Shown here one piece after another: positions 15,150-32,564 of a stretch of 59,510 nucleotides of DNA; position 1 is the stretch's first letter, and each line of letters begins with the position of its first letter. This DNA is from Streptantibioticus rubrisoli (GTDB lineage Bacteria; Actinomycetota; Actinomycetes; Streptomycetales; Streptomycetaceae). The stretch spans positions 1 through 59,510 of the forward strand of contig NZ_JANFNH010000044.1 in NCBI RefSeq assembly GCF_024436055.1, given 5' to 3'. The notes beneath the pieces are model-generated. The model was not told the origin of the DNA. It searched no databases and worked only from the letters and a program-made list of their open reading frames with translations. Position numbers and translations under genes: made by a program.

Positions 15150-17576
15150 ATGAGCAGCCTCTTCGATGACAGTTTCCTGGCCGACATGGCCGCCATGGAG
15201 CCGGGCGAGGAACACCCTCCGCCGCCGGACGAGCACCCGGCGGAAGCGCTCCCGGACGACCTGTTCGGGGGCCGGTACGACACGCCGCCGCACGCGTTGG
15301 GCACGCTGCGCGACACGTACTACCGGGACGGCGCGCCGCGCCCCGTGGTGGACCCGTCGGCCCTGCTGGAGGGGCTGAACGAGAACCAGCGCGCCGCCGT
15401 GGTGCACTCCGGTTCCCCCCTGCTCATCGTCGCCGGCGCGGGCTCCGGCAAGACCCGGGTGCTGACCCACCGGATCGCCCATCTGCTCGCGGCGCGCCAT
15501 GTGCACCCCGGCCAGATCCTCGCGATCACCTTCACCAACAAGGCCGCGGGCGAGATGAAGGAGCGGGTGGAGCAGCTCGTCGGCCCGCGGTCGGCGGCGA
15601 TGTGGGTGTCCACCTTCCACAGCGCGTGCGTGCGCATCCTGCGCCGCGAGTCCAAGAAGCTCGGCTTCACCTCCAGCTTCTCGATCTACGACGCCGCCGA
15701 CTCCAAGCGCCTGATGGCCCTGGTCTGCCGCGATCTGGACCTGGATCCCAAGCAGTTCCCGCCGAAGTCGTTCAGCGCCCAGGTCTCCAACCTCAAGAAT
15801 GAGCTGATCGACGAGGAGACGTTCGCCGCCCGGGCGGAGAACCCGTTCGAGAAGAAGCTCGCCGAGGCGTACGCGCTCTACCAGGCCCGGCTGCGCGAGG
15901 CCAACGCGCTGGATTTCGACGACATCATCATGACCACCGTCCACCTGCTCCAGGCGTTCGAAGACGTCCGCGAGCACTACCGGCGCCGCTTCCGGCACGT
16001 GCTGGTGGACGAGTACCAGGACACCAACCACGCCCAGTACACCCTGGTGCGCGAGCTGGTCGGCAGCGGCGACGACGCCGCCGAGCTGTGCGTCGTCGGT
16101 GACGCGGACCAGTCGATCTACGCGTTCCGCGGTGCGACGATCCGCAACATCCTCCAGTTCGAGGAGGACTACCCGACGGCGACCACGATCCTGCTGGAGC
16201 AGAACTACCGCTCCACGCAGACCATCTTGTCCGCCGCCAACGCGGTCATCGAGCGCAACACCAGCCGCCGTCCGAAGAACCTGTGGACCGAGGCGGGCGC
16301 CGGACCGGTGATCACCGGCTATGTCGCCGACACCGAGCACGACGAGGCGCAGTACGTCGCCGAGGAGATCGACCGCCTCAGTGACGCGGGCGAGGCGAAA
16401 CCCTCCGATGTGGCGGTCTTCTACCGGACCAACGCCCAGTCCCGGGTCTTCGAGGAGATCTTCATCCGGGTCGGGCTGCCGTACAAGGTCGTCGGCGGAG
16501 TGCGCTTCTACGAGCGCAAGGAGGTCCGGGACGTCCTGGCCTACCTACGCGTTCTGGCCAATCCGGAGGACAGCGTTCCGCTGCGTCGGATCCTCAATGT
16601 CCCCAAGCGCGGCATCGGCGAACGCGCGGAGGCGATGATCGACGCGCTGTCGCTGCGCGAGAAGATCACCTTTCCCCAGGCGCTGCGCCGGGTGGACGAG
16701 GCGTACGGCATGGCGGCCCGCTCGGTCAACGCCGTCCGGCGGTTCAACGAGCTGATGGAGGAGCTGCGCACCATCGTCGAGTCCGGCGCGGGACCGGCGA
16801 CCGTGCTCGAAGCCGTTCTCGAACAGACCGGCTATCTCGCCGAGTTGCAGGCGTCCACCGATCCGCAGGACGAGACCCGGATCGAGAACCTCCAGGAACT
16901 CGCCGCCGTGGCCCTGGAGTTCGAGCAGGAGCAGCCGGAAGGCGTGCTGTCGGACTTCCTTGAGCAGGTCGCGCTGGTCGCCGACTCCGACCAGATCCCC
17001 GACGAGGAGGAGGGCGGCGGCGTCATAACGCTGATGACGCTGCACACCGCCAAGGGGCTTGAGTTCCCGGTGGTGTTCCTGACCGGCATGGAGGACGGCG
17101 TCTTCCCGCACATGCGCGCGCTCGGCCAGGCCAAGGAACTGGAGGAGGAGCGCCGCCTGGCGTACGTCGGCATCACCCGCGCCCGCGAGCGGCTCTACCT
17201 GACGCGCTCCGCGATGCGCAGCGCCTGGGGCCAGCCGTCGTACAACCCGCCGTCGCGGTTCCTTGAGGAGATTCCGGACAAGCTCATCGAGTGGAAGCGG
17301 ACGGGTGGTTCGGCGCCGTCGGTGTCCGCCGCGTCCGCTGCGCTGTCGGCCGGGCGCACCGGCAAGGCGGGGCCGTCCGGGTTCGCCACTCGGCGGGCGA
17401 AGGAGCGGCAGGTCGTCTCGCTGGCGGTCGGCGACCGGGTCACCCATGACTCGTTCGGGCTCGGCACGGTGGTCGCGGTCAAGGGCAGCGGGGACAACGC
17501 CGAGGCGACGGTGGACTTCGGGGACGACAAGCCGAAGCGGTTGTTGCTGCGGTACGCGCCGGTCGAGAAGCTCTGA
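15150..17576 (+). CDS. pcrA: ATP-dependent DNA helicase PcrA/UvrD
   Basis: An 808 aa superfamily 1A 3'-5' helicase, slightly longer than usual because of an acidic N-terminal extension of about 70 residues. Motifs in order: Q motif LNENQ, Walker A GAGSGKT at 96-102, TFHSAC, Walker B VDEYQDTN, GDADQSIYAFRGA, NYRST, TLHTAKGLEF and YVGITRAR. The C-terminal about 60 residues (VGDRVTHDSFGLGTVV...VDFGDDKPKRLLLRYAPVEKL) form the Tudor-like domain that binds RNA polymerase in PcrA. Acts in nucleotide excision repair and replication-transcription conflict clearance. Its promoter fits the DNA-damage consensus. Confidence 0.97.
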   Translation: MSSLFDDSFLADMAAMEPGEEHPPPPDEHPAEALPDDLFGGRYDTPPHALGTLRDTYYRDGAPRPVVDPSALLEGLNENQRAAVVHSGSPLLIVAGAGSGKTRVLTHRIAHLLAARHVHPGQILAITFTNKAAGEMKERVEQLVGPRSAAMWVSTFHSACVRILRRESKKLGFTSSFSIYDAADSKRLMALVCRDLDLDPKQFPPKSFSAQVSNLKNELIDEETFAARAENPFEKKLAEAYALYQARLREANALDFDDIIMTTVHLLQAFEDVREHYRRRFRHVLVDEYQDTNHAQYTLVRELVGSGDDAAELCVVGDADQSIYAFRGATIRNILQFEEDYPTATTILLEQNYRSTQTILSAANAVIERNTSRRPKNLWTEAGAGPVITGYVADTEHDEAQYVAEEIDRLSDAGEAKPSDVAVFYRTNAQSRVFEEIFIRVGLPYKVVGGVRFYERKEVRDVLAYLRVLANPEDSVPLRRILNVPKRGIGERAEAMIDALSLREKITFPQALRRVDEAYGMAARSVNAVRRFNELMEELRTIVESGAGPATVLEAVLEQTGYLAELQASTDPQDETRIENLQELAAVALEFEQEQPEGVLSDFLEQVALVADSDQIPDEEEGGGVITLMTLHTAKGLEFPVVFLTGMEDGVFPHMRALGQAKELEEERRLAYVGITRARERLYLTRSAMRSAWGQPSYNPPSRFLEEIPDKLIEWKRTGGSAPSVSAASAALSAGRTGKAGPSGFATRRAKERQVVSLAVGDRVTHDSFGLGTVVAVKGSGDNAEATVDFGDDKPKRLLLRYAPVEKL

Positions 17577-20652: not shown

Positions 20653-22257
20653 CTAGCCCGCGAGCTCCTGCAGCATGGCCGCCCGTAGCCGAAGCGTGGT
20701 GACCAACCGCTGGAACGCCTCCGACCAGTACGCCCCGGAACCGGGAGACGCGTTCGAACCGTCCTCCGCGGTCGCCGTGAGCGGCTCCAGGCGTTCCGCC
20801 AGCCCCGGGTCAAGGCAGCGCTCCGCCAACCCCATCACACCGCTGAAGCTCCACGGGTAGCTGCCCGCCTCCCGCGCGATGTCCAACGCGTCGACCACCG
20901 CCCGCCCCAGCGGCTCCGCCCACGGCACCGCGCACGCGCCCAGCAACTGGAACGCCTCCGACAGGCCGTGCCCGGCGATGAACTCGGCCACCCAAACCGC
21001 CCGTTCGTCCTCCGGCAGCACGGACAGCAGCTTCGCCGGGTCCCCGACGGCGGCCACCGCACCGGCCGGTACCGGCGGCGGCCCGAGCAGTGCCCGGGCC
21101 CACCGCGCGTCCCGCTGCCGCACCGCCGCCCGGCACCAGGCCGCGTGCAGGTCCGGTTGCCAGTCGTCGGCCACCTCCAGCGCCGCTATCTGCTCCGGCG
21201 TGCGCCCCCCGAACCGGTCCCGCCATATGGCCAGTGGCGCGCCCTCCACCAACTGGCCCAGCCACCAGGACCGTTCACCGCGCCCCGGCGGCGGGGTGGC
21301 GGTCACCCCGTCCCGTTCCATCGCCGCGTCGCAGGCGTGCGGCGCCTCGACCACGATGCGTGGACCGACCCCCGTACGGTCCAACGCGACGCAGGCCAGG
21401 GCCCGTTCGGTCATGCGGTGGGAGAGCGCCGAGCCGGGCAGCGCGGACAGCAGCTCGGCGGCGGTGGCGCGGACGTTGCGGCTGCGGTCGGTGAGCGCCT
21501 GTTCCAGGAACGGCTCATCGTCCGGGCCGAGACCGGTGCGCAGCGCGTCGAGGAACAGCAGCCGATCCTCGGCCCGCTCCTTCGCCCAGGTGCCGCTCAG
21601 CAGCGCGAGCCCGGCGGCCGGATCGCGCTCCCGGATGCGGGTGAGCAGCGCCACGCGCTCCGCGAACAGTCCCTCGTCCCACAACCGTTGGGCCGCCCGC
21701 GGGTCTGCTGCGGCGTCCCCGGCGGCGCCCCGGTTGCCCGAGCGCAGGGCGAACTTCCACTCCGGGTTCAGCTCGGCCAGCCACAGGGCGCGCGGACCGG
21801 CCAGCGCGAGTGCGTCGGACCGCAGGTCGGTGCGGGCCCGCGCGGCGTCCAGCAGGTCCGGAAGCACCGCGTCCGGGGCGCGGTACCCATACCGTCCGGC
21901 TGCCGCCAGCCACTGCGGCAGCAACTCGGCGAGGCTGGGCGCCGCGCCGCGCCGTCCGCCGCCTGAACCACCGTGGTGCGTACGGTCGTTGAGCAGGTCG
22001 CGGAGACGGGACCGGGCGGCGGGTGGGGGCAGCGGACGTGGATCGTCCGGTGCCACCGCGGGGCGTGGCGCGCTACGGGCCGGGCGCAGTCCGGCGCGGC
22101 GGCGCACGGTGGCGACGGCCGCCGCGTCCAGCAGCGCCCCCGCCGGATCGACGGGCTCGGCACCGACCTCTATGGGTGGTCTGCGCCGGGTGGTGCCCAG
22201 CAGCGCGGCGGAGACCAGCTCCTCCCAGGCCGGTGCTGTGTGCTCGGTGATGGTCAT
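20653..22257 (-). CDS. DUF5691 family protein
   Basis: A 534 aa soluble protein starting WEELVSAALLGTTRRRPP, the hallmark N-terminus of DUF5691. The rest is Ala/Leu/Arg-rich helices with HEAT-like repeats (for example DRSRNVRATAAELLSALPGSAL), suggesting a scaffold. No catalytic motif seen. It lies 46 bases downstream of the SWIM gene on the same strand, probably in one operon, and divergent from the MoxR/DUF5682/VWA operon with which these families habitually co-occur. Biochemical role unknown. Confidence 0.82.
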   Translation of the reverse strand: MTITEHTAPAWEELVSAALLGTTRRRPPIEVGAEPVDPAGALLDAAAVATVRRRAGLRPARSAPRPAVAPDDPRPLPPPAARSRLRDLLNDRTHHGGSGGGRRGAAPSLAELLPQWLAAAGRYGYRAPDAVLPDLLDAARARTDLRSDALALAGPRALWLAELNPEWKFALRSGNRGAAGDAAADPRAAQRLWDEGLFAERVALLTRIRERDPAAGLALLSGTWAKERAEDRLLFLDALRTGLGPDDEPFLEQALTDRSRNVRATAAELLSALPGSALSHRMTERALACVALDRTGVGPRIVVEAPHACDAAMERDGVTATPPPGRGERSWWLGQLVEGAPLAIWRDRFGGRTPEQIAALEVADDWQPDLHAAWCRAAVRQRDARWARALLGPPPVPAGAVAAVGDPAKLLSVLPEDERAVWVAEFIAGHGLSEAFQLLGACAVPWAEPLGRAVVDALDIAREAGSYPWSFSGVMGLAERCLDPGLAERLEPLTATAEDGSNASPGSGAYWSEAFQRLVTTLRLRAAMLQELAG

Positions 22258-22303: not shown

Positions 22304-23659
22304 TCACAGCGCTACCGGCCGCGCCGCCGACCAGGTCGTCAGCGGGGTGAAGCCCCGGTGTCCCACGGTGCCGAAGACGGTGACCGGACGACCGCCCGAG
22401 ACCGCGGCGAGCCGCCACAGGCCGGGCCGCCCCAGCCGCCGCGGGTCCACCGGAAGCGCTGAGTCCCCTTCCGCGTCGGCCAGTTGCCAGCCGCACTGGT
22501 CCGGTATCGGCACCACCCCGGCCAGTACCACCGGCCATTCGTCCAGCCAGGGATCGGCGCCCAGCGCCACCCCGTACCCGGTCAGCGCCTCTTGGACCGG
22601 CACGCCAGGCGGTGTCTGCCCGGCGGTCGGCGGGCCGTACCGGGTGCCCAGCGCGGCGCGCAGCGGCAGGCCGCCGGGGTGGTAGGCCAGCTCCGCCTCC
22701 AGCGACCGGCCCACCGGCAGCGTCACCTCCGGCGCCCGGCCCGCCGCGCCGAACGAGAGCAGCAGCGCCGCACGGCGGCTGCGCGCACCGAGCAGCCAGA
22801 TGCGGCGGGTGGTCATCGTCCCTTCCACGCTGTCCTGTTGGGCGAGCACCAGCCAGCTGTCCCGGAGCGTCGGCCCGGCCAGCAACTCCGCGCTGGCGGT
22901 GGTGAATCCGAGCCGGGAGCGGACCGTGTCGGCCAGGGGACCTGGCAGCGAGTCCAGGTTGAGGCAGCCGCGGGCCAGCAGGTGCAGCATCGCGTACTCC
23001 TCCAGCAGCCGCGACGGCCAGTCGCCGCCCGACGCCGGTATCGCCGCCAAGTCCCGTACACGCGCGGCGAGTCCGGGGGCCTGGGCGTCGACCATGCGGG
23101 CGGCGACGCCCTCCCAGCCGCGCTGCTCCTCCCGGCCCATGGCCAGGCCGCTGCGCAACTGGTCGGCCAGCCGCGCCTCAAGTTCCGTCGCGCCCGCCGC
23201 CACCCGTTGGGCGCGCCGCTCGGCGCGCTTGCGAGCCGCCGCGGGATCAGCCGCCGCGCTCGCGCCGCGCGCGGTCTTCTCGCGCGCCGCCGCCGTGCGC
23301 TTGGCGTGCCACTGCGCCACCCACTGCGGTGGCGTCCCCTCATCCGTGGCCGTGGGCACCTCGCCGCGCGCCCACAGCAGTAGCAGCGCCAGGGCGTGCT
23401 TGCACGGGAACTTGCGGCTCGGGCAACTGCAGTTGAACGCCGGACCGGCGAGGTCGACGGCCGTGCGGTACGGCTTGCTGCCGCTGCCCGCGCACAGCCC
23501 CCACACCACCGCACCGCCGCCGTCCCCCGACGGCCCCGACGTGCCCGTGCCGGTCCACGGTCCCGGCGCGGCGAGCCGGGTACCGGCCTTTTGTGACGCG
23601 GCGTCAGGAGCGAGTGCGAGCACTTGCTCCACCGACCACCGCTGCTCGGTGTCCTCCAT
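22304..23659 (-). CDS. SWIM zinc-finger protein
   Basis: A 451 aa protein. The SWIM motif is at about 81-92: CSCPSRKFPCKH (Cys-x-Cys-x6-Cys-x-His). Such zinc fingers bind DNA or protein. A charged Arg/Ala/Lys-rich region (about 120-175) follows, then a globular C-terminal half of unknown fold. Start: the ATG at 23659 lies seven bases after a TAGCGT -10 box and has no RBS, so the mRNA appears leaderless and the longer frame to 23761 is excluded. It is the first gene of the minus-strand arm of the island and is driven by a DNA-damage-type promoter. Confidence 0.85.
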   Translation of the reverse strand: MEDTEQRWSVEQVLALAPDAASQKAGTRLAAPGPWTGTGTSGPSGDGGGAVVWGLCAGSGSKPYRTAVDLAGPAFNCSCPSRKFPCKHALALLLLWARGEVPTATDEGTPPQWVAQWHAKRTAAAREKTARGASAAADPAAARKRAERRAQRVAAGATELEARLADQLRSGLAMGREEQRGWEGVAARMVDAQAPGLAARVRDLAAIPASGGDWPSRLLEEYAMLHLLARGCLNLDSLPGPLADTVRSRLGFTTASAELLAGPTLRDSWLVLAQQDSVEGTMTTRRIWLLGARSRRAALLLSFGAAGRAPEVTLPVGRSLEAELAYHPGGLPLRAALGTRYGPPTAGQTPPGVPVQEALTGYGVALGADPWLDEWPVVLAGVVPIPDQCGWQLADAEGDSALPVDPRRLGRPGLWRLAAVSGGRPVTVFGTVGHRGFTPLTTWSAARPVAL

Positions 23660-23666
23660 GCCCACG

Positions 23667-23689
23667 ACGCTACGAGCCGCCACTGACAA
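23667..23689 (-). promoter_or_regulatory. RecA-NDp (PafBC-type) DNA-damage promoter, SWIM operon
   Basis: On the minus strand TTGTCAGTG (23689-23681), eight bases, TAGCGT (23672-23667). This matches TTGTCRGTG-N8-TANNNT at every fixed position and has the TTGTCAGTGGC form described for Streptomyces recA. Predicted transcription start is at or next to the ATG (23659). Confidence 0.85.
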
Positions 23690-23726
23690 TCGGCGCTGAC
23701 CTGCGGATTTCCCGCGCCAACCGGGA

Positions 23727-23749
23727 TTGTCAGTGGCCTCGTGCAACCT
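23727..23749 (+). promoter_or_regulatory. RecA-NDp (PafBC-type) DNA-damage promoter, MoxR operon
   Basis: TTGTCAGTG (23727-23735), eight bases, CAACCT (23744-23749). The -35-like part is identical to the divergent copy over 13 bases (23679-23691 versus 23725-23737); the -10 has C for the first T. The mRNA leader would be about 40 bases, consistent with the GGGGGAG RBS before the MoxR ATG at 23794. Confidence 0.7.
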
Positions 23750-23793
23750 GAGACCGCACAAGTTTCCTGTCTGGGACGAACGTTGGGGGAGCC

Positions 23794-24879
23794 ATGTCCG
23801 AAGAGGCCCTGCGCCCGCATGCCGAGGACGCCTTCGCCGAGGAGCTGAAGGCGCTGTCGGCCGTCGACGACCGCCCGCGCCCCGCCCGTTGGCGGCTGTC
23901 GCCGTGGGCGGTGGCCACCTATCTCATGGGAGGCACGCTGCCCGACGGCACCGTCATCAGCCCCAAGTACGTGGGCCCGAGGCGGATCATCGAGGTCGCC
24001 GTCTCCACCCTCGCCACCGATCGCGCCCTGTTGCTGCTCGGCGTGCCCGGCACCGCCAAGACCTGGGTGTCCGAGCACCTCGCGGCGGCCGTCAGCGGAG
24101 ACTCCACCCTGCTGGTCCAGGGCACGGCGGGCACGCCCGAGGAGGCGATCCGCTACGGCTGGAACTACGCCCAGTTGCTGGCGCACGGCCCCAGCCGGGC
24201 CGCGCTGGTGCCGGGGCCGGTGATGCGCGCGATGTCCGGCGGCGGCATCGCCCGGGTCGAGGAGCTGACCCGTATCCCTGCCGACGTGCAGGACACGCTC
24301 ATCACCATCCTGTCCGAGAAGACCCTGCCGATACCGGAGTTGGGCGAGGAGGTGATGGCGGTGCGCGGCTTCAACCTCATCGCCACCGCGAACGACCGGG
24401 ACCGCGGCGTCAACGATCTGTCCAGCGCGCTGCGCCGCCGCTTCAACACGGTCGTGTTGCCGCTACCCGCCACGGTGGAGGACGAGGTCGACATCGTCGC
24501 GCGGCGGGTGGCCCAGATCGGCCGTGGCATCGAGTTGCCGCCGGTGCCCGAGGGCACCGAGGAGATCCGCCGCGTCGTCACCGTCTTCCGTGAACTGCGC
24601 GACGGCATCACGGCCGACGGCCGTACCAAGGTCAAGTCCCCCTCGGGCACGCTGTCCACCGCCGAGGCGATCTCCGTGGTCACCGGCGGCCTGGCGCTGG
24701 CCGCGCACTTCGGCGACGGGGTGCTGCGCCCCGGCGACGTCGCGGCCGGGATCCTGGGCGCGGTGGTCCGCGACCCGGCCGCGGACCGGGTCATCTGGCA
24801 GGAATACCTGGAGTCCGTGGTGCGTGAGCGCGACGGCTGGAAGGACTTCTACCGCGCCTGCCGCGAGGTGAGCGCATGA
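23794..24879 (+). CDS. MoxR-type AAA+ ATPase
   Basis: A 361 aa AAA+ ATPase. Walker A GVPGTAKT (83-90; Ala replaces the usual Gly), Walker B-like region GIARVEELTR with catalytic Glu, sensor 1 LIATAND, and arginine-finger region SSALRRRFNTVVLPLP. MoxR ATPases act as chaperones or maturation factors for VWA-containing partners, and a VWA gene ends this operon. GGGGGAG lies before the ATG. Its stop overlaps the DUF5682 start (ATGA). Fed by a promoter resembling the PafBC class. Confidence 0.92.
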   Translation: MSEEALRPHAEDAFAEELKALSAVDDRPRPARWRLSPWAVATYLMGGTLPDGTVISPKYVGPRRIIEVAVSTLATDRALLLLGVPGTAKTWVSEHLAAAVSGDSTLLVQGTAGTPEEAIRYGWNYAQLLAHGPSRAALVPGPVMRAMSGGGIARVEELTRIPADVQDTLITILSEKTLPIPELGEEVMAVRGFNLIATANDRDRGVNDLSSALRRRFNTVVLPLPATVEDEVDIVARRVAQIGRGIELPPVPEGTEEIRRVVTVFRELRDGITADGRTKVKSPSGTLSTAEAISVVTGGLALAAHFGDGVLRPGDVAAGILGAVVRDPAADRVIWQEYLESVVRERDGWKDFYRACREVSA

Positions 24880-27398
24880 ACACCGCACTGCGCGCGGCTC
24901 CACAGAAGGGCGGCACCGCGCCCCCGGCCGAGCCTGCGCCACCGACCAGGGAAGGACGAGCGCCCCTGCGGTGCGCGGGCGGTCCGGAGACGACGCCCGC
25001 ACAACCGGAGACGCCGCCCGCACAAGAGGACGGTGCGCGTTCGCCGGTCCCGGGCCCCGACGTGCCGCCCGCTGCCGAGGACGCGGGTGCCGAGGACGCG
25101 GGCGCCGACGCGCCGGGGCGGGCCGCCGAGCGGCCACTGCTGCTCGGGGTGCGGCACCACGGGCCGGGCTCCGCGCGAGCGGTGCGCGCCGCGCTGGAGC
25201 GGTACCAGCCGCGGGCGCTGCTGGTGGAGGGACCGCCCGAGGCGGACGCGGTGGTGGGCATCGCGCGGGAGGGGCTGCGGCCACCGGTGGCGCTGCTGGC
25301 GCACGCGGTGGACGATCCGGCGCGGGCCGCGTTCTGGCCGTTCGCCGAGTTCTCGCCGGAGTGGGTGGCGGTCCGCTGGGCGCTCGCCCGGGGGGTGCCG
25401 GTGCGCTTCATCGACCTGCCCGCCGCCCACACCCTCGCCCTGCACGACGACACCCCCGACGAGGAGTGCGCCGACGAGGCCGCGGTACGGGTCGATCCGC
25501 TGGCGGTGCTCGCCCAGGCCGCCGGACACGACGACCCGGAGCGCTGGTGGGAGGACGTGGTGGAGCACCGCGCCGAGGGCGGCCCGGACGGCGACCCGCT
25601 GGCCCCGTTCACCGTGCTCGCCGAGGCCATGGCCGCGCTGCGGGAACGGCACGCGGACGGTGGCCACCCCCGTGACGCGGTGCGCGAGGCCCATATGCGG
25701 CTGCGGATCCGTGAGGCCACCCGCGAGCACGACCGCGTCGCCGTGGTCTGCGGTGCCTGGCACGTACCCGCGCTGGCCGCCCCGGCCACCGTGACCGCCG
25801 ACCGGCGCACGCTGCGTGGCCTGCCCAAGGTGAAGACGGAGGTCACCTGGGTGCCGTGGACCCACCGCAGGCTGCGTCGCCGCAGCGGCTACGGCGCCGG
25901 AATCGACTCACCCGGCTGGTACCGGCACCTGTTCACCGCCCCGGACCGCCCCCTGGTGCGATGGATGACCAGGGTCGCCGGGCTGCTGAGGGCCGAGGAC
26001 CGCCAGGTGTCGTCCGCCCATGTGATCGAGGCGGTCCGGCTCGCCGAGACGCTGGCCGCGATGCGCGGCCGACCGCTGGCCGGTCTCGCCGAGACCATGG
26101 ACGCGGTGCGGGCGGTGATGTGCGAGGGATCCGAGGTGCCGCTGGCGCTGATCCACGACCGCCTGGTGGTGGGCGAGGAACTCGGCGAGGTCCCCGACAC
26201 CTCTCCCGCCGTACCGCTCGCCCGCGACCTGGCCCGCCAGCAGCGCGCGCTGCGGCTCAAACCGGAGGCCGCCGAGCGGGAGTTGGACCTGGACCTGCGC
26301 CAGGACAACGACGCCGCCCGCAGCCGGCTGCTGCACCGGCTGGCCCTGCTAGGCGTCCCCTGGGGTGAACCGGTCCGCTCCCGCACCGCCAACGCCGGTA
26401 CGTTCCGGGAGAGTTGGCGGCTGTGCTGGGAGCCGGAACTGGCGGTGCGGGTAGCCGAGGCCGGGGTATGGGGCACCACGGTCGAGTCGGCGGCCACGGC
26501 GAAGGCCGAGGACACCGCCGTGGCCGCCGCCAGGCTCGCCGAGGTCACCGCGCTGGCCGAACGGTGCCTGCTGGCCGCGCTGCCCGACGCCCTGCCGACC
26601 GTGCTGCGGGTGCTGGCCGACAAGGCCGCGCTCGACGCCGACGTCGGCCATCTCGCCCAAGCGCTGCCCGCGTTGGTGCGCTCCGCGCGCTACGGCGACG
26701 TACGCGGCACCGACGCGGCCGCGCTGCGCGAGGTCGCCGAGGGCCTCGCGCTGCGGATCTGTGTGGGCCTACCGCCCGCCTGCGCGGCGCTGGACGAGGC
26801 GGGCGCCGCCGAGATGCGCGGCCATCTGGACGCGGTGCACTCGGCGATCGGCCTGCTGGCGGCCGAACGGCTGGGCGAGCGCTGGACGGCGGTGCTGACC
26901 TCGCTGGCCACCCGGGACGGCACGGTGCCGGGGGCGATACGCGGCCGGGCGGCCCGGCTGCTGCTGGACGAAGGACGGTTCGACGCGGCACGGGCCGCCC
27001 GGCTGATGGGGCTGGCCCTGTCGCCCGGTAGCGCGCCGCGGGACGCCGCCGGTTGGCTGGACGGCTTCCTGTCCGGCGGCGGGATGCTGCTGGTGCACGA
27101 CGAGCAGCTGCTGGCCCTGGTCGACGGCTGGCTGGGCGCGGTGCCAAACGAGGCGTTCAGCGATGTACTTCCGCTTGTGCGGCGGACGTTCGCCGAGTTC
27201 GAGCCCGGTGTTCGGCGCACGGTGGGGGAGTTGGCGCGCCGCGGACCAGCAAGGGGCGGGCGGCGGATGGTCGAGGGCGGTGGCAACGGCTTCGGTGCGG
27301 GGCTCGACGAGGCCCGCGCTGAGGCCGTACTGCCCACGCTGCGACTGCTGTTGGGGGCGGGCGCCGTTGGCGATCACACGGAGGGGAGCAGCGCATGA
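24876..27398 (+). CDS. DUF5682 family protein
   Basis: An 840 aa protein. The first about 85 residues are Pro/Ala-rich and disordered. Residues 88-300 hold the conserved block LLLGVRHHGPGSARAV, LLVEGPPEAD, RFIDLPAAH and VVCGAWHVPAL, whose spacing of a His motif, an acidic motif and a final Gly-x-x-His resembles the TraB/ChaN (Tiki-like) hydrolase superfamily; that link is my inference. The C-terminal two thirds are helical. Start overlaps MoxR and stop overlaps the VWA gene (both ATGA), so the three are translationally coupled. No function is established. Confidence 0.85.
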   Translation: MNTALRAAPQKGGTAPPAEPAPPTREGRAPLRCAGGPETTPAQPETPPAQEDGARSPVPGPDVPPAAEDAGAEDAGADAPGRAAERPLLLGVRHHGPGSARAVRAALERYQPRALLVEGPPEADAVVGIAREGLRPPVALLAHAVDDPARAAFWPFAEFSPEWVAVRWALARGVPVRFIDLPAAHTLALHDDTPDEECADEAAVRVDPLAVLAQAAGHDDPERWWEDVVEHRAEGGPDGDPLAPFTVLAEAMAALRERHADGGHPRDAVREAHMRLRIREATREHDRVAVVCGAWHVPALAAPATVTADRRTLRGLPKVKTEVTWVPWTHRRLRRRSGYGAGIDSPGWYRHLFTAPDRPLVRWMTRVAGLLRAEDRQVSSAHVIEAVRLAETLAAMRGRPLAGLAETMDAVRAVMCEGSEVPLALIHDRLVVGEELGEVPDTSPAVPLARDLARQQRALRLKPEAAERELDLDLRQDNDAARSRLLHRLALLGVPWGEPVRSRTANAGTFRESWRLCWEPELAVRVAEAGVWGTTVESAATAKAEDTAVAAARLAEVTALAERCLLAALPDALPTVLRVLADKAALDADVGHLAQALPALVRSARYGDVRGTDAAALREVAEGLALRICVGLPPACAALDEAGAAEMRGHLDAVHSAIGLLAAERLGERWTAVLTSLATRDGTVPGAIRGRAARLLLDEGRFDAARAARLMGLALSPGSAPRDAAGWLDGFLSGGGMLLVHDEQLLALVDGWLGAVPNEAFSDVLPLVRRTFAEFEPGVRRTVGELARRGPARGGRRMVEGGGNGFGAGLDEARAEAVLPTLRLLLGAGAVGDHTEGSSA

Positions 27399-28552
27399 CG
27401 ACCAACGAGGAACGGCTGCGCCGCTGGCGCCTGGTGCTGGGTGGCGACGCGGACGGCACCGGATGCCCGCTGAGCGGCCGGGACCTGCGGATGGACGCCG
27501 CCCTCGCCGCGCTCTACGGCGGTGCTGGCAGCGGCGGCCAGTCCGACGCGGGCCGCTCGGCGGGACTGGGCGGCTCTGCACCGAGAGTGGCCCGCTGGCT
27601 GGGCGACATCCGTACGTACTTCCCCACCTCCGTGGTGCAGGTGATGCAGCGCGACGCCATCGACCGGCTGGGTCTTTCCGCCCTGTTGCTGGAGCCCGAG
27701 ATGCTGGAGGCCGTGGAGGCCGACGTTCATCTGGTCGGCACGCTGCTCTCGCTGCACCAGGCGATGCCCGAGACCACGAAGGAGACGGCACGGACCGTGG
27801 TGCGCAAGGTGGTGGCCGATCTGGAGGCGCGGCTGGCCACCCGCACCCGGGCGACGCTGACCGGCGCCCTGGACCGCTCGGCACGCGTTCGGCGGCCGAG
27901 GCACCACGACATCGACTGGGACCGCACGATACGCGCCAACCTGAAGAACTACCTTCCGGAACACCGCACGGTGGTGCCCGAGCGGCTGGTTGGTTATGGG
28001 CGGGCGGCGCAGGGGGTGAAGAAGGACGTGGTGCTCTGCGTCGACCAGTCGGGATCGATGGCGGCCTCGGTCGTCTACTCATCCGTGTTCGGCGCCGTAC
28101 TGGCCTCGATGCGGTCGATCGCCACCAAACTCGTGGTGTTCGACACCTCCATCGTGGACCTCACCGACCAACTGGACGATCCGGTCGAGGTGTTGTTCGG
28201 CACCCAGCTCGGCGGGGGCACCGACATCAACCGGGCGCTCGCCTACTGCCAGTCGCTGATCACCCGGCCGAGCGAGACCGTGGTGGTGCTCATCAGCGAC
28301 CTGTACGAGGGCGGCATACGCGACGAGATGCTCAAGCGGGTGGCGGCGATGAAGGCGTCCGGTGTGCAGTTCGTGGCGCTGCTCGCGCTGTCCGACGAGG
28401 GCGCGCCGTCGTACGACCGGGAGCACGCGGCGGCGCTCGCCGCGCTCGGCGCACCCGCCTTCGCCTGCACCCCGGACCTGTTCCCCGAGGTGATGGCGGC
28501 CGCCATCGAGAAGCGCCCGTTGCCGATACCGGACATGACGCCCAATCAGTAA
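27395..28552 (+). CDS. VWA domain-containing protein (MoxR partner)
   Basis: A 385 aa soluble protein. The C-terminal half is a von Willebrand factor A domain with a complete MIDAS: Asp217-x-Ser219-x-Ser221 in VDQSGSM, Thr in GGGTDINRAL and Asp in ISDLYEGG. The N-terminal half is helical with no named domain. The lack of a signal peptide or helix places it in the cytoplasm, as in CoxE-like MoxR partners. It closes the coupled MoxR-DUF5682-VWA operon. The metal site suggests metal-dependent binding of a client or of MoxR. Confidence 0.92.
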   Translation: MTTNEERLRRWRLVLGGDADGTGCPLSGRDLRMDAALAALYGGAGSGGQSDAGRSAGLGGSAPRVARWLGDIRTYFPTSVVQVMQRDAIDRLGLSALLLEPEMLEAVEADVHLVGTLLSLHQAMPETTKETARTVVRKVVADLEARLATRTRATLTGALDRSARVRRPRHHDIDWDRTIRANLKNYLPEHRTVVPERLVGYGRAAQGVKKDVVLCVDQSGSMAASVVYSSVFGAVLASMRSIATKLVVFDTSIVDLTDQLDDPVEVLFGTQLGGGTDINRALAYCQSLITRPSETVVVLISDLYEGGIRDEMLKRVAAMKASGVQFVALLALSDEGAPSYDREHAAALAALGAPAFACTPDLFPEVMAAAIEKRPLPIPDMTPNQ

Positions 28553-29453: not shown

Positions 29454-29484
29454 GAGACGAATAATGCAGTTGAAGGAAGAGTCC

Positions 29485-30291
29485 GTGCAGTTCCGCCAAA
29501 AGGCGCTTTCCAAGCTGCAGTCACCCGAAGAACTCGATCTGCCGGTGCGCTTCGCCCGTCCGCAGGGGCGGCTCGTGCTGGCGGTCACGGTCATCGTCAT
29601 GGCCGTCGCGACCTTCTGGGCCCTCACCGGCTCCGTCTCCGCCAAGCTGACCGCACCCGGGATCCTCACCCATCCCGAGGGCAGTTACCTCCTGCAGAGC
29701 CCGTTCTCCGGGCAAATCACCGCGGTGCTCGCCCAGGAGGGCCAGCTGCTGGCCCCCGGCGCCCCCCTGGCCACCGTCCGTACCGAACAGGGCGACCGGA
29801 CCGTACGAGCGGTGGCCGGAGGCCGGGTGACCGCCCTGGTCGCCAAGATAGGCGCGGTCGTCACCACCGGGGCGAACGTGGCGATCGTGGAGCGCGTGCG
29901 GGATCCGAACGAACCGCTGGTGGCCATGGTGTACGTGCCCGGCGGGAGCGGCTCGACGATTCCGGTGGGCGCCCCGGTCGACCTGACGGTGCAGTCCGTC
30001 CCCCAGCAGCGTTTCGGAGTGCTGCGCGGCCGCGTCGAGGCCGTCGGCCGCGAGCCCCAGACACAGGCGCAGCTCACCGGCTTCCTCGGCGACAGCCAGC
30101 TCGCCGCGCAGTTCTCCCGGCAGGGCAACCCCACAGCCGTACTGGTGCAGTTGGCGCCCTCGTCCACCACCAGGTCCGGCTACCAGTGGTCCTCCACGGA
30201 CGGCCCCCCGTACTCCCTGGACTCCACGACACCGGTCACCGGCGCCATCCACCTCACCGCACAGCGCCCCATCGATTGGCTGCTCCCGTGA
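29485..30291 (+). CDS. HlyD-like adaptor of NHLM bacteriocin export system
   Basis: A 268 aa protein from the GTG at 29485 (AAGGAAG five bases upstream; an ATG at 29464 would add seven residues). It begins QFRQKALSKLQSPEELD, has one membrane helix (LVLAVTVIVMAVATFWAL), then a biotinyl-lipoyl-like hairpin domain (LQSPFSGQITAVLAQEGQLLAPGAPLATV) and a beta-rich tail. This matches the NHLM secretion HlyD family. It should link the ABC transporters to export across the envelope; with no outer membrane, its role is probably accessory. Overlaps the next gene by 4 bases (GTGA). Confidence 0.85.
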   Translation: MQFRQKALSKLQSPEELDLPVRFARPQGRLVLAVTVIVMAVATFWALTGSVSAKLTAPGILTHPEGSYLLQSPFSGQITAVLAQEGQLLAPGAPLATVRTEQGDRTVRAVAGGRVTALVAKIGAVVTTGANVAIVERVRDPNEPLVAMVYVPGGSGSTIPVGAPVDLTVQSVPQQRFGVLRGRVEAVGREPQTQAQLTGFLGDSQLAAQFSRQGNPTAVLVQLAPSSTTRSGYQWSSTDGPPYSLDSTTPVTGAIHLTAQRPIDWLLP

Positions 30292-32564
30292 CGACGCCGC
30301 GCACCCGCTCAGAGTCCCGGCGTCAGGCCCGGCACCTGCCGCCCGCCGGGCGCCGCCACCGTCCCGAGCCCCGGGGCGGCACCCGCCGCCGCGGATCCGT
30401 CCCCAGGTCCCGGCAGAAGACCGTACGAACCCCTACCATCCTGCAGATGGAGGCGGTGGAGTGCGGTGCCGCCGCGCTGGCCATGGTGCTCGCCCACTAC
30501 CGCCGCTTCGTTCCCCTGGAGGAGCTGCGCATCGCCTGCGGTGTCTCCCGCGACGGCTCGCGCGCCAGCAACCTCCTCAAGGCCGCCCGCAGTTACGGTC
30601 TGACGGCCAAGGGCATGCAGATGGACCTGGCCGCGCTCGCCGAGGTGCGTGCCCCGGCCATCCTGTTCTGGGAGTTCAACCACTACGTCGTCTACGACGG
30701 CATGGGGCGCCGCTTCGGCCGCCGGGGCGCGTACATCAACGACCCGGCCAAGGGCCGCCGTTTCGTGCCCATGGACGAGTTCGACACCAGCTTCACCGGT
30801 GTGGTGCTCACCTTCGAGGTCGGCGAGGGCTTCCGCCGCATCGGCCGCAAGCCGGGCATCATGAGCGCCATGCCGGCCCGGCTGCGCGGCACCTCGGGCA
30901 CCATGCTCGCCGCCGTGCTCGCCAGCCTGCTGCTGGTGGTGGTCGGCGCGTGGGTGCCCGCGCTCAGCCGCACGTACATCGACATGTTCCTGATCGGCAA
31001 CCAGACCTCGCTGCTGGGCGTGGTCTTCGCCTCCATGGCGGCGGCGCTGGTGCTCACCGCGGTGCTCACCGGGCTCCAGCAGGCCAACCTGCTGCGCGGA
31101 CGCATCATCACCTCCACCCTGGGCAGCGCCCGCTTCCTGCGGCACCTGCTCCGGCTGCCGGTGACCTTCTACTCCCAGCGCAACCCGGCCGACCTGGTGC
31201 AGCGCCTGCAGTCCAACGACGCGGTCGCCGAGACCCTCGCCCGCGACCTGGCCGCCGCGGGCGTGGACGCGGTGGTGGTCGTGGTCTACGCGGTGCTGCT
31301 GTGGACGTACGACCCGCAGCTCACCGTGCTGGGCGTGCTGATCGCGCTGCTGAACGTGGTGGCCATGCGGATCGTCATCCGGGTGCGGGCCACCGGGACC
31401 CAGAAACTGCGCGCCGAGAGCGCCCGGCTGACCAACACCTCGTACAGCGGTCTGCAGCTGATCGAGACGATGAAGGCCACCGGAGGGGAGAACGGGTTCT
31501 TCCGCCGCTGGGCAGGACAGCACGCGGTCACCCTCGACGTACAGCAGCGGCTCGGCGTCCCCAGCGCCTGGCTGGCGATCGTCGCGCCCACGCTGGCCGC
31601 CGTCAACAGCGCGTTGATCCTGCTGATCGGCGGCCTGCGGGCGGTCGAGGGCCACCTGTCGGTCGGTCTGCTGGTCGCCTTCCAGTCCCTGATCACCAGT
31701 TTCACCACACCGATCACCCGCCTCAACGGCGTGGCCGGACGGGTCCAGGACTTCGCCGCCGACGTCGCCCGCCTCAAGGACGTCGAGAACTTCCCCGTCG
31801 ACCCGGTCTACACCCGGCGCGAGCCCGCCAGCAGCACCCGCCGCCTCAAGGGCCACGTGGAGCTGGACCACATCACCTTCGGCTACAGCCCGCTGGACGC
31901 ACCGCTGTTGAAGGACTTCTCGCTGTCGGTCGGCCCCGGCCAGCAGATCGCCCTGGTCGGCGGCTCCGGCAGCGGCAAGTCCACCGTCTCCCGGCTGATC
32001 TCGGGGCTCTACGCCCCCTGGGAGGGCACCATCCGCATCGACGGGATGCGCCTGGAGGACATCCCGCGCGGTGCGCTGGCCGCCTCCGTCTCCTTCGTCG
32101 ACCAGGACGTGTTCCTCTTCGAGGGCACCGTCCGGGACAACGTGGCGCTGTGGGACCCCTCCATCCCCGACGAGGCCGTGATCGCCGCCCTTCAGGACGC
32201 CGCCGTGCACGACGTGGTGGCCCGCCGCCCCGGCGGTATCCACAGCCGGGTCGAGCAGGACGGCCGCAACTTCTCCGGCGGCCAGCGGCAGCGGCTGGAG
32301 ATCGCCAGGGCGCTGGTGCGCCGCCCCAGCATCCTGGTCCTGGACGAGGTGACCAGCGCGCTGGACGCGATGACCGAGCAGCTGATCATCGACAACCTGC
32401 GGCGCCGTGGCTGCGCCTGTGTGGTGATCGCCCACCGGCTGAGCACGGTGCGCGACAGCGACGAGATCGTCGTGCTCGACCGGGGCACGGTGGTGGAGCG
32501 CGGGCGGCACGAGTACCTGGTGGCCGCGCAGGGCGCCTACGCCGAACTGGTCAAGGAGCACTGA
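30288..32564 (+). CDS. NHLM-type ABC transporter with C39 leader peptidase
   Basis: A 758 aa PCAT-type exporter. Order: basic N-terminal tail (1-45), C39 peptidase (about 46-175) with oxyanion Gln53, catalytic Cys59 (VECGAAALAM), His132 (FNHYVVYDG) and Asp152 (INDPAKG), six-helix membrane domain (about 205-480), ATP-binding domain with Walker A GGSGSGKS, signature FSGGQRQR, Walker B LVLDE and IAHRLS. It should cut the GG leader of the 29012-29254 peptide and export the core. All catalytic residues are present. GTG start overlaps the adaptor stop; the second transporter follows one base after its stop. Confidence 0.93.
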   Translation: MTTPRTRSESRRQARHLPPAGRRHRPEPRGGTRRRGSVPRSRQKTVRTPTILQMEAVECGAAALAMVLAHYRRFVPLEELRIACGVSRDGSRASNLLKAARSYGLTAKGMQMDLAALAEVRAPAILFWEFNHYVVYDGMGRRFGRRGAYINDPAKGRRFVPMDEFDTSFTGVVLTFEVGEGFRRIGRKPGIMSAMPARLRGTSGTMLAAVLASLLLVVVGAWVPALSRTYIDMFLIGNQTSLLGVVFASMAAALVLTAVLTGLQQANLLRGRIITSTLGSARFLRHLLRLPVTFYSQRNPADLVQRLQSNDAVAETLARDLAAAGVDAVVVVVYAVLLWTYDPQLTVLGVLIALLNVVAMRIVIRVRATGTQKLRAESARLTNTSYSGLQLIETMKATGGENGFFRRWAGQHAVTLDVQQRLGVPSAWLAIVAPTLAAVNSALILLIGGLRAVEGHLSVGLLVAFQSLITSFTTPITRLNGVAGRVQDFAADVARLKDVENFPVDPVYTRREPASSTRRLKGHVELDHITFGYSPLDAPLLKDFSLSVGPGQQIALVGGSGSGKSTVSRLISGLYAPWEGTIRIDGMRLEDIPRGALAASVSFVDQDVFLFEGTVRDNVALWDPSIPDEAVIAALQDAAVHDVVARRPGGIHSRVEQDGRNFSGGQRQRLEIARALVRRPSILVLDEVTSALDAMTEQLIIDNLRRRGCACVVIAHRLSTVRDSDEIVVLDRGTVVERGRHEYLVAAQGAYAELVKEH

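Follow-up and report, generated by a model that had tools for sequence, protein, structure and literature searches.

The 134 bases that separate the start codons of a SWIM zinc-finger protein gene (ATG at 23657–23659, minus strand) and a MoxR-type ATPase gene (ATG at 23794, plus strand) carry two oppositely oriented promoter motifs which, judged from their sequence and conservation, are most likely PafBC-activated DNA-damage promoters, one for each arm of a five-gene island. The window, i.e. the whole stretch of 59,510 nucleotides of Streptantibioticus rubrisoli DNA that was analyzed, was compared with orthologous loci in Streptomyces, in other Streptomycetaceae, and in other families of the class. 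The joint explanation that we consider probable is that divergent PafBC-type promoters keep both halves of a split ancestral unit damage-inducible.

The minus arm consists of the SWIM gene (22304–23659; PF04434), predicted to be leaderless, followed by a DUF5691 gene (20653–22257; PF18944, E = 1.1e-177). The plus arm consists of the MoxR-type AAA+ ATPase gene (23794–24879; PF07728), a DUF5682 gene (24876–27398; PF18934, E = 1.9e-292), and a CoxE-like VWA gene (27395–28552; VWA_CoxE, PF05762). The preliminary description of this DNA had proposed a MoxR/VWA island with two arms; the arms stood, and the extent was corrected, as DUF5691 joins the minus arm and brings the island to five genes. PADLOC models gave no match to the four proteins scanned (MoxR, DUF5682, VWA, and SWIM), and the NCBIfam matches were weak and far below the cut-off (ViaA for VWA, the MadB ATPase for MoxR). 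The AlphaFold model of DUF5682 was mediocre (mean pLDDT 71.4, pTM 0.49), and a Foldseek search with this model returned no match at E 0.001 or better. A resemblance of the DUF5682 N-terminus to TraB/TIKI/EreA-like proteins was also considered; Pfam lent it no support. A search of the open-licence literature found no paper on DUF5682. We also noted a UvrD/PcrA helicase gene (15150–17576, plus strand) approximately 3 kb beyond the minus arm, with no second exact RecA-NDp site in the window. On the other side, approximately 0.9 kb downstream of the VWA gene, begins a peptide-export type pair (29464–32564, plus strand), in which a HlyD-like protein precedes an ABC transporter carrying a C39 peptidase domain.

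Within the gap, two exact copies of the 13-base box GATTGTCAGTGGC lie in opposite orientation, at 23679–23691 on the minus strand and at 23725–23737 on the plus strand, with 33 bases between them, a layout that had been described correctly to the base. The count alone is not significant, since at least two copies of the 13-mer at up to 2 mismatches were present in 43 of 100 shuffles; the significance of the boxes rests instead on the exactness of both copies, on the full motif around them, and on 25 exact motif matches in the source genome versus none for the reversed pattern. On the minus strand, positions 23689–23667 read TTGTCAGTG-GCGGCTCG-TAGCGT, with the 9-mer at 23689–23681 and the –10 element at 23672–23667. 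The RecA-NDp consensus is given as tTGTCRgtg-8 nt-TannnT in the excerpted text of PMC5656591, and the claim that the minus site fits it was borne out, as the –26 element TTGTCRGTG and, eight bases on, TANNNT agree at all fixed positions. This site is the sole exact TTGTCRGTG-N8-TANNNT of the whole window, and the pattern did not occur in 100 shuffles.

The –10 element of the SWIM-arm promoter (23667–23689) ends 7 bases ahead of the SWIM ATG. To place this spacing in context, orthologous Streptomyces loci were found by the MoxR protein, and the best 80 of 556 confirmed loci were examined; all counts out of 80 below refer to this set. All 80 loci have the minus motif ahead of the SWIM gene (75 exact, five with one mismatch), and the distance from the –10 element to the SWIM start was 7 bases in 79 loci and 6 in the remaining one. 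Because the SWIM start follows the promoter by 6–7 bases in all 80 orthologues, the SWIM mRNA is probably leaderless; the leaderless-type spacing that had been read from one gap is fixed across these Streptomyces loci, and the transcription start point is a prediction from it. Leaderless frames have been put at ~20% in S. lividans (available text of PMC6742748).

Anchoring the scan on MoxR instead, we found the full minus motif within 400 bases of MoxR in 65 of the 80 loci. A single mismatch or a wide gap accounts for the 15 loci missed; 12 of these have 719–902 bases between SWIM and MoxR, and there the SWIM promoter is retained and each box remains with its own gene. In the one wide-gap locus examined for its content (L026), a 136-residue frame, possibly encoding a lipoprotein-like product, lies between SWIM and MoxR. 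Upstream flanks have an information content of 0.42–0.55 bits and –10 elements 1.57–1.58 bits; the 2.0 bits of the 9-mer are circular, since loci were anchored on exact 9-mers, and the flank, spacer, and –10 values alone are informative. Across these 80 orthologues the boxes are conserved in the gap while the flanks and the distance between the boxes drift. Conserved boxes between drifting flanks had been named in the preliminary description as support for its reading, and a loss of the boxes from orthologous gaps, which it had named as a refutation, was not seen.

The RecA-NDp promoter class is reportedly already known (Ahel, 2002, and Gamulin, 2004, are the names attached to it). A RecA-NDp-type regulon exists in the source genome. 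Setting aside the SWIM site, a Pfam scan of 28 frames after the other 24 exact sites gave repair-type matches at 11 sites: dnaX, a PD-(D/E)XK nuclease, ruvC, uvrC, a DEAD-box helicase, recA, a RecD2-like helicase, a UvrB-type protein (an identity suggested by its domain order), an O6-methylguanine methyltransferase (MGMT), a uracil-DNA glycosylase (UDG), and an AlkZ-like glycosylase. Four sites precede genes with no evident repair role (KDPG aldolase, glyoxalase, an ABC protein, and a transport permease), and nine gave no Pfam match (L006, L011, L014–L017, L022–L024), some of which may be intragenic. Two of the exact sites, L018 and L019, form another mirrored pair (G000:C56:10085-10198), between the UvrB-type and O6-methylguanine methyltransferase genes. 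A genome from a different family of the class has a mirrored pair of identical 23-base RecA-NDp sites within 86 bases (G030:C1:1907155-1907240).

The candidate regulator is encoded in the same genome, where pafB and pafC are adjacent. PafB gave full-length alignments with 7p5x_AY (E = 2.6e-58) and 9fnd_X (E = 5.8e-58), both named 'Transcriptional regulator-like protein', which we take to be M. smegmatis PafB, and it also aligned with 6sj9_A, named PafBC (E = 3.4e-42). Twenty-two Streptomycetaceae genomes together held 539 motif matches versus 4 reversed controls, and a PafC match was present in 22 of 22. In a draw of 246 genomes of the class, many PafC-positive genomes hold few motif matches, and 20 listed of the 51 PafC-negative genomes hold few but non-zero matches, up to 5 in one. 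As motif number and PafC presence are thus loosely related over the class, we infer PafBC to be the regulator and do not take it as given. Another activator of the same sequence, ClgR or a further WYL regulator, might read the boxes and convey a different or additional signal. This is unlikely in our view, although the imperfect tracking of PafC by motif counts speaks for it, as do the nine matches to the PafC HTH family in the source genome (PafC among them); the sites, however, precede repair-type genes, and the PafB alignment with solved PafB chains spans the whole length, HTH region included. ClgR is cited in the excerpt of PMC5656591 as recognizing the P1 promoter in M. smegmatis. In mycobacteria, the PafB HTH engages the –26 element and single-stranded DNA activates PafBC (PMC11804915, in the portion available).

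The MoxR-arm promoter (23727–23749, plus strand) departs from the consensus at a single position. The plus strand reads TTGTCAGTG-GCCTCGTG-CAACCT, with an exact 9-mer at 23727–23735 and the –10 element at 23744–23749, the lone mismatch being a C at –12. The earlier claim of an exact –26 element with one mismatch downstream is accurate. TANNNT followed the plus 9-mer in none of the 80 Streptomyces loci. The plus 9-mer itself was exact in 78 of 80, and a CANNNT plus site with a relaxed 9-mer was found in 80 of 80. From these alignments, the plus –10 element is best described as a conserved CANNNT variant, neither a consensus member nor a decayed site. A probable ribosome-binding site of the MoxR gene, GGGGGAG, can be read at 23785–23791 on the plus strand.

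The CANNNT form is not confined to this gap. The source genome contains 19 CANNNT sites versus 1 control, and the frames that follow them (10 of 19 scanned) include those of Lhr helicase, DinB, and a Rv2175c-like protein, besides genes whose role is different or unknown. Pooling the TANNNT and CANNNT sets, 21 of 44 sites are followed, 6–8 bases past the –10 element, by the ATG or GTG of a frame that is 60 codons or longer; other 3-base windows gave a mean of 2.76 frames in 44, a mean that includes one artefact window. That window, a control at –18 with 25 of 44, picks up the GTG that is part of the 9-mer; the highest count among the remaining windows is 6. In the genus of G018, 59 of 61 genomes contain the exact leaderless CANNNT pattern, and the reversed control matched in none of the 61. 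This recurrence of leaderless CANNNT sites across genomes marks C at –12 as a recurrent trait, as opposed to decay at one locus. Such a subtype would escape searches with the consensus.

Next, we followed the MoxR-side site through the rest of the family, in which a MoxR orthologue was found in 117 of 121 genomes. A CANNNT site precedes MoxR in 20 of 20 further Streptomycetaceae loci (15 genus labels, with two loci of the organism's own label g1); its 9-mer has at most one mismatch in 18, two in L195, and three in L198/L215. In 14 of these further loci the SWIM start was covered, and all 14 have the SWIM motif 7 bases ahead of it with no more than 2 mismatches. Two Streptomycetaceae genera, g108 and g105, are still collinear, DUF5691 and MoxR being separated by ~0.8 to 5.6 kb. 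A CANNNT site precedes MoxR in all seven of their genomes fetched. These sites are weak, their 9-mers having 1 to 3 mismatches, and in three of the seven stretches the relaxed pattern also matches away from the SWIM and MoxR starts. In the three g108 genomes with SWIM covered, the SWIM motif is again 7 bases before the start.

Outside Streptomycetaceae, the motif is found at the SWIM end only. DUF5682 is present in 61 of the 246 class genomes drawn; 40 listed places were fetched, comprising 28 orthologues outside Streptomycetaceae and 12 loci with a paralogous MoxR (44–47% identity), whose fetched stretches showed no SWIM gene. Among the 28 orthologues, the genes that were detected share one strand and run SWIM-DUF5691-MoxR-DUF5682, with all four detected in 25; VWA comes next in nine of nine loci checked, one of which (L233) is from Streptomycetaceae itself. 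A relaxed motif within 420 bases of MoxR was found in 0 of the 28 and in 1 of the 12 paralogues. The region upstream of SWIM was fetched for 26 of the 28 loci, and SWIM with its start was found in 25. The motif lies 6–8 bases before the SWIM start in 17 of these 25 (at most 2 mismatches, Y accepted at –12): 14 of 17 in family f17, 3 of 5 in f18, and 0 of 3 in f42, f26, and f4. In the other eight, the motif at the SWIM start has 3 or more mismatches. As controls, 200 permuted 9-mers gave a mean of 0.055 loci and a maximum of 3, and the reversed 9-mer gave 0. A paralogous MoxR/DUF5682 locus without a detected SWIM was also seen in 10 Streptomycetaceae genomes fetched (L159–L168), among which L163 alone has a site no more than 420 bases from MoxR, its 9-mer differing at one position.

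These distributions bear on whether the plus site is a damage promoter at all. The SWIM arm alone could have one, the plus 9-mer with its C at –12 being an inactive or constitutive element, and both the absence of TANNNT from all 80 plus loci and the absence of a box before MoxR in all 28 loci outside Streptomycetaceae are in keeping with that idea. We nevertheless hold it to be quite improbable, given the exact 9-mer in 78 of 80 Streptomyces loci and CANNNT in all 80, the CANNNT site before MoxR in every one of the 20 further Streptomycetaceae loci (18 with at most one 9-mer mismatch), and the CANNNT sites of leaderless type in G018's genus and before Lhr and DinB in the source genome. The simplest reading, which we favor, is that there was one ancestral SWIM promoter, that the separated MoxR then had a site of its own, and that the two halves later became divergent.

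Across the 80 loci, the two 9-mers lie anywhere from 25 to 764 bases apart, and this largely refutes a further reading, in which the boxes would form an inverted-repeat operator for a dimeric repressor and not two promoters. The perfect 13-base inverted repeat in the gap invites that reading, yet outside Streptomycetaceae the box is found at the SWIM start only, and each box follows its own gene when the gap is 719–902 bases; we therefore reject it as very improbable. LexA/SOS control of the gap, which would likewise give damage inducibility, is the least credible alternative and was rejected for want of a box, as the LexA/SOS core GAAC-N4-GTTC was found in none of the 80 loci over the 330 bases that precede MoxR and, between 23641 and 23800, has no match at 0 or 1 mismatch and one with 2 at 23774. 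Some mycobacterial damage genes do carry both LexA and RecA-NDp elements (PMC8223512, in the text available).

Upon a closer inspection of the gap, we noted a third conserved element, GCAGGTCAG, on the minus strand at 23696–23704, just upstream of the minus box (it reads CTGACCTGC on the plus strand). It was found at up to 2 mismatches in 79 of 81 loci, a count for an element defined post hoc on the same sequences and without a shuffled control, and in 74 of 81 it stands 14–15 bases upstream of one or the other box, the side switching between species. The element or a near copy of it also precedes the box of Lhr helicase and two other CANNNT sites of the source genome (L112, L116, L118). Spacing between the 9-mers (23690–23726 in the window; loci L026–L105) clusters near 25, 37, 49, and 61 bases, with 37 in 23 loci, 49 in 14, 61 in six, 38 in six, 36 in three, and 25 in three. 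On a MoxR tree, 15 of 19 large inferred spacing changes were within 1 base of a multiple of 12, a count that leaves out changes to or from wide gaps. Steps of ~12 bases do not match the helical step of 10.5 bases.

We propose the following mechanism for the divergent PafBC-type promoters, borrowing its activation steps from mycobacteria. Single-stranded DNA would accumulate after damage, PafBC would act at the –26 element TTGTCAGTG, and it would thereby enable the housekeeping RNA polymerase to initiate at promoters that lack a proper –35 element. From the minus promoter, transcription would begin at the SWIM ATG and yield a leaderless SWIM-DUF5691 mRNA; from the plus CANNNT promoter, it would yield a leadered MoxR-DUF5682-VWA mRNA with a leader of about 37 bases. 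The ancestral unit would have been SWIM-DUF5691-MoxR-DUF5682-VWA with a single RecA-NDp-type promoter at its head. In Streptomycetaceae, this unit may have been split and inverted, the MoxR half carrying its own box, and both halves of a putative AAA+/VWA remodelling machine would thereby stay co-inducible by damage. Since each separated piece keeps its own box in evolution, the five genes very probably take part in the DNA-damage response. More tentatively, and with less confidence than we would wish, they might form a novel AAA+/VWA machine, induced by damage, whose targets are DNA or stalled repair complexes and which belongs to the core of the actinobacterial PafBC response. Selection on its control would then be strong enough for each unit to have kept or gained a box upon breakage of the ancestral operon, with a CANNNT subtype that lies outside the published consensus and a third element at about –40.

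This promoter class is abundant in Streptomycetaceae, and a LexA-independent, PafBC-type response in Streptomyces has been stated as open: according to an S. venezuelae LexA study, a first search pointed to a lack of conservation of the M. smegmatis PafBC motif in that species, and the question was left open (PMC9380542). In the main text of that study, the words MoxR, SWIM, VWA, and von Willebrand do not appear. The UV induction of S. coelicolor SCO6735, which has a RecA-NDp promoter, speaks the other way. The island offers a sharp test of such a response, being a near-universal locus with two conserved sites and predicted start points, and it ties a widespread uncharacterized MoxR/VWA/SWIM gene set to DNA damage. 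What looks new is the island as a target, the CANNNT subtype, and a mirrored pair that outlasts the splitting of the operon; among the matches listed from the open-licence literature, we noticed no paper on any of the three.

The closest known relative of the minus site is the RecA-NDp promoter of the recA P1 type, PafBC-activated in mycobacteria (PMC5656591, excerpted text), with which it agrees at every fixed position. The source genome likewise carries the motif before recA and uvr-type genes. Unlike that class, the plus site here has C at –12 in all orthologues, the sites form a mirrored pair, and the targets have no known repair role. A RecA-NDp promoter is also found in Streptomyces at the S. 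coelicolor macrodomain gene SCO6735, which is up about 5-fold after UV (PMC5087735); that case involves a single promoter and a single gene. The divergent UvrB-type/MGMT pair of the source genome also resembles the gap, having two exact mirrored RecA-NDp sites and a start codon 6 bases past both –10 elements, but both of its sites are TANNNT and its genes are known kinds of repair genes. At the protein level, the island resembles MoxR AAA+/VWA partner systems (RavA-ViaA, NorQ-NorD), in which a MoxR ATPase adjoins a VWA protein. E. coli yehLMPQ is a further system of this kind, and DUF5682 also has a match in E. coli. In contrast to RavA-ViaA, NorQ-NorD, and yehLMPQ, the island adds SWIM, DUF5691, and DUF5682 partners together with a putative damage-type promoter.
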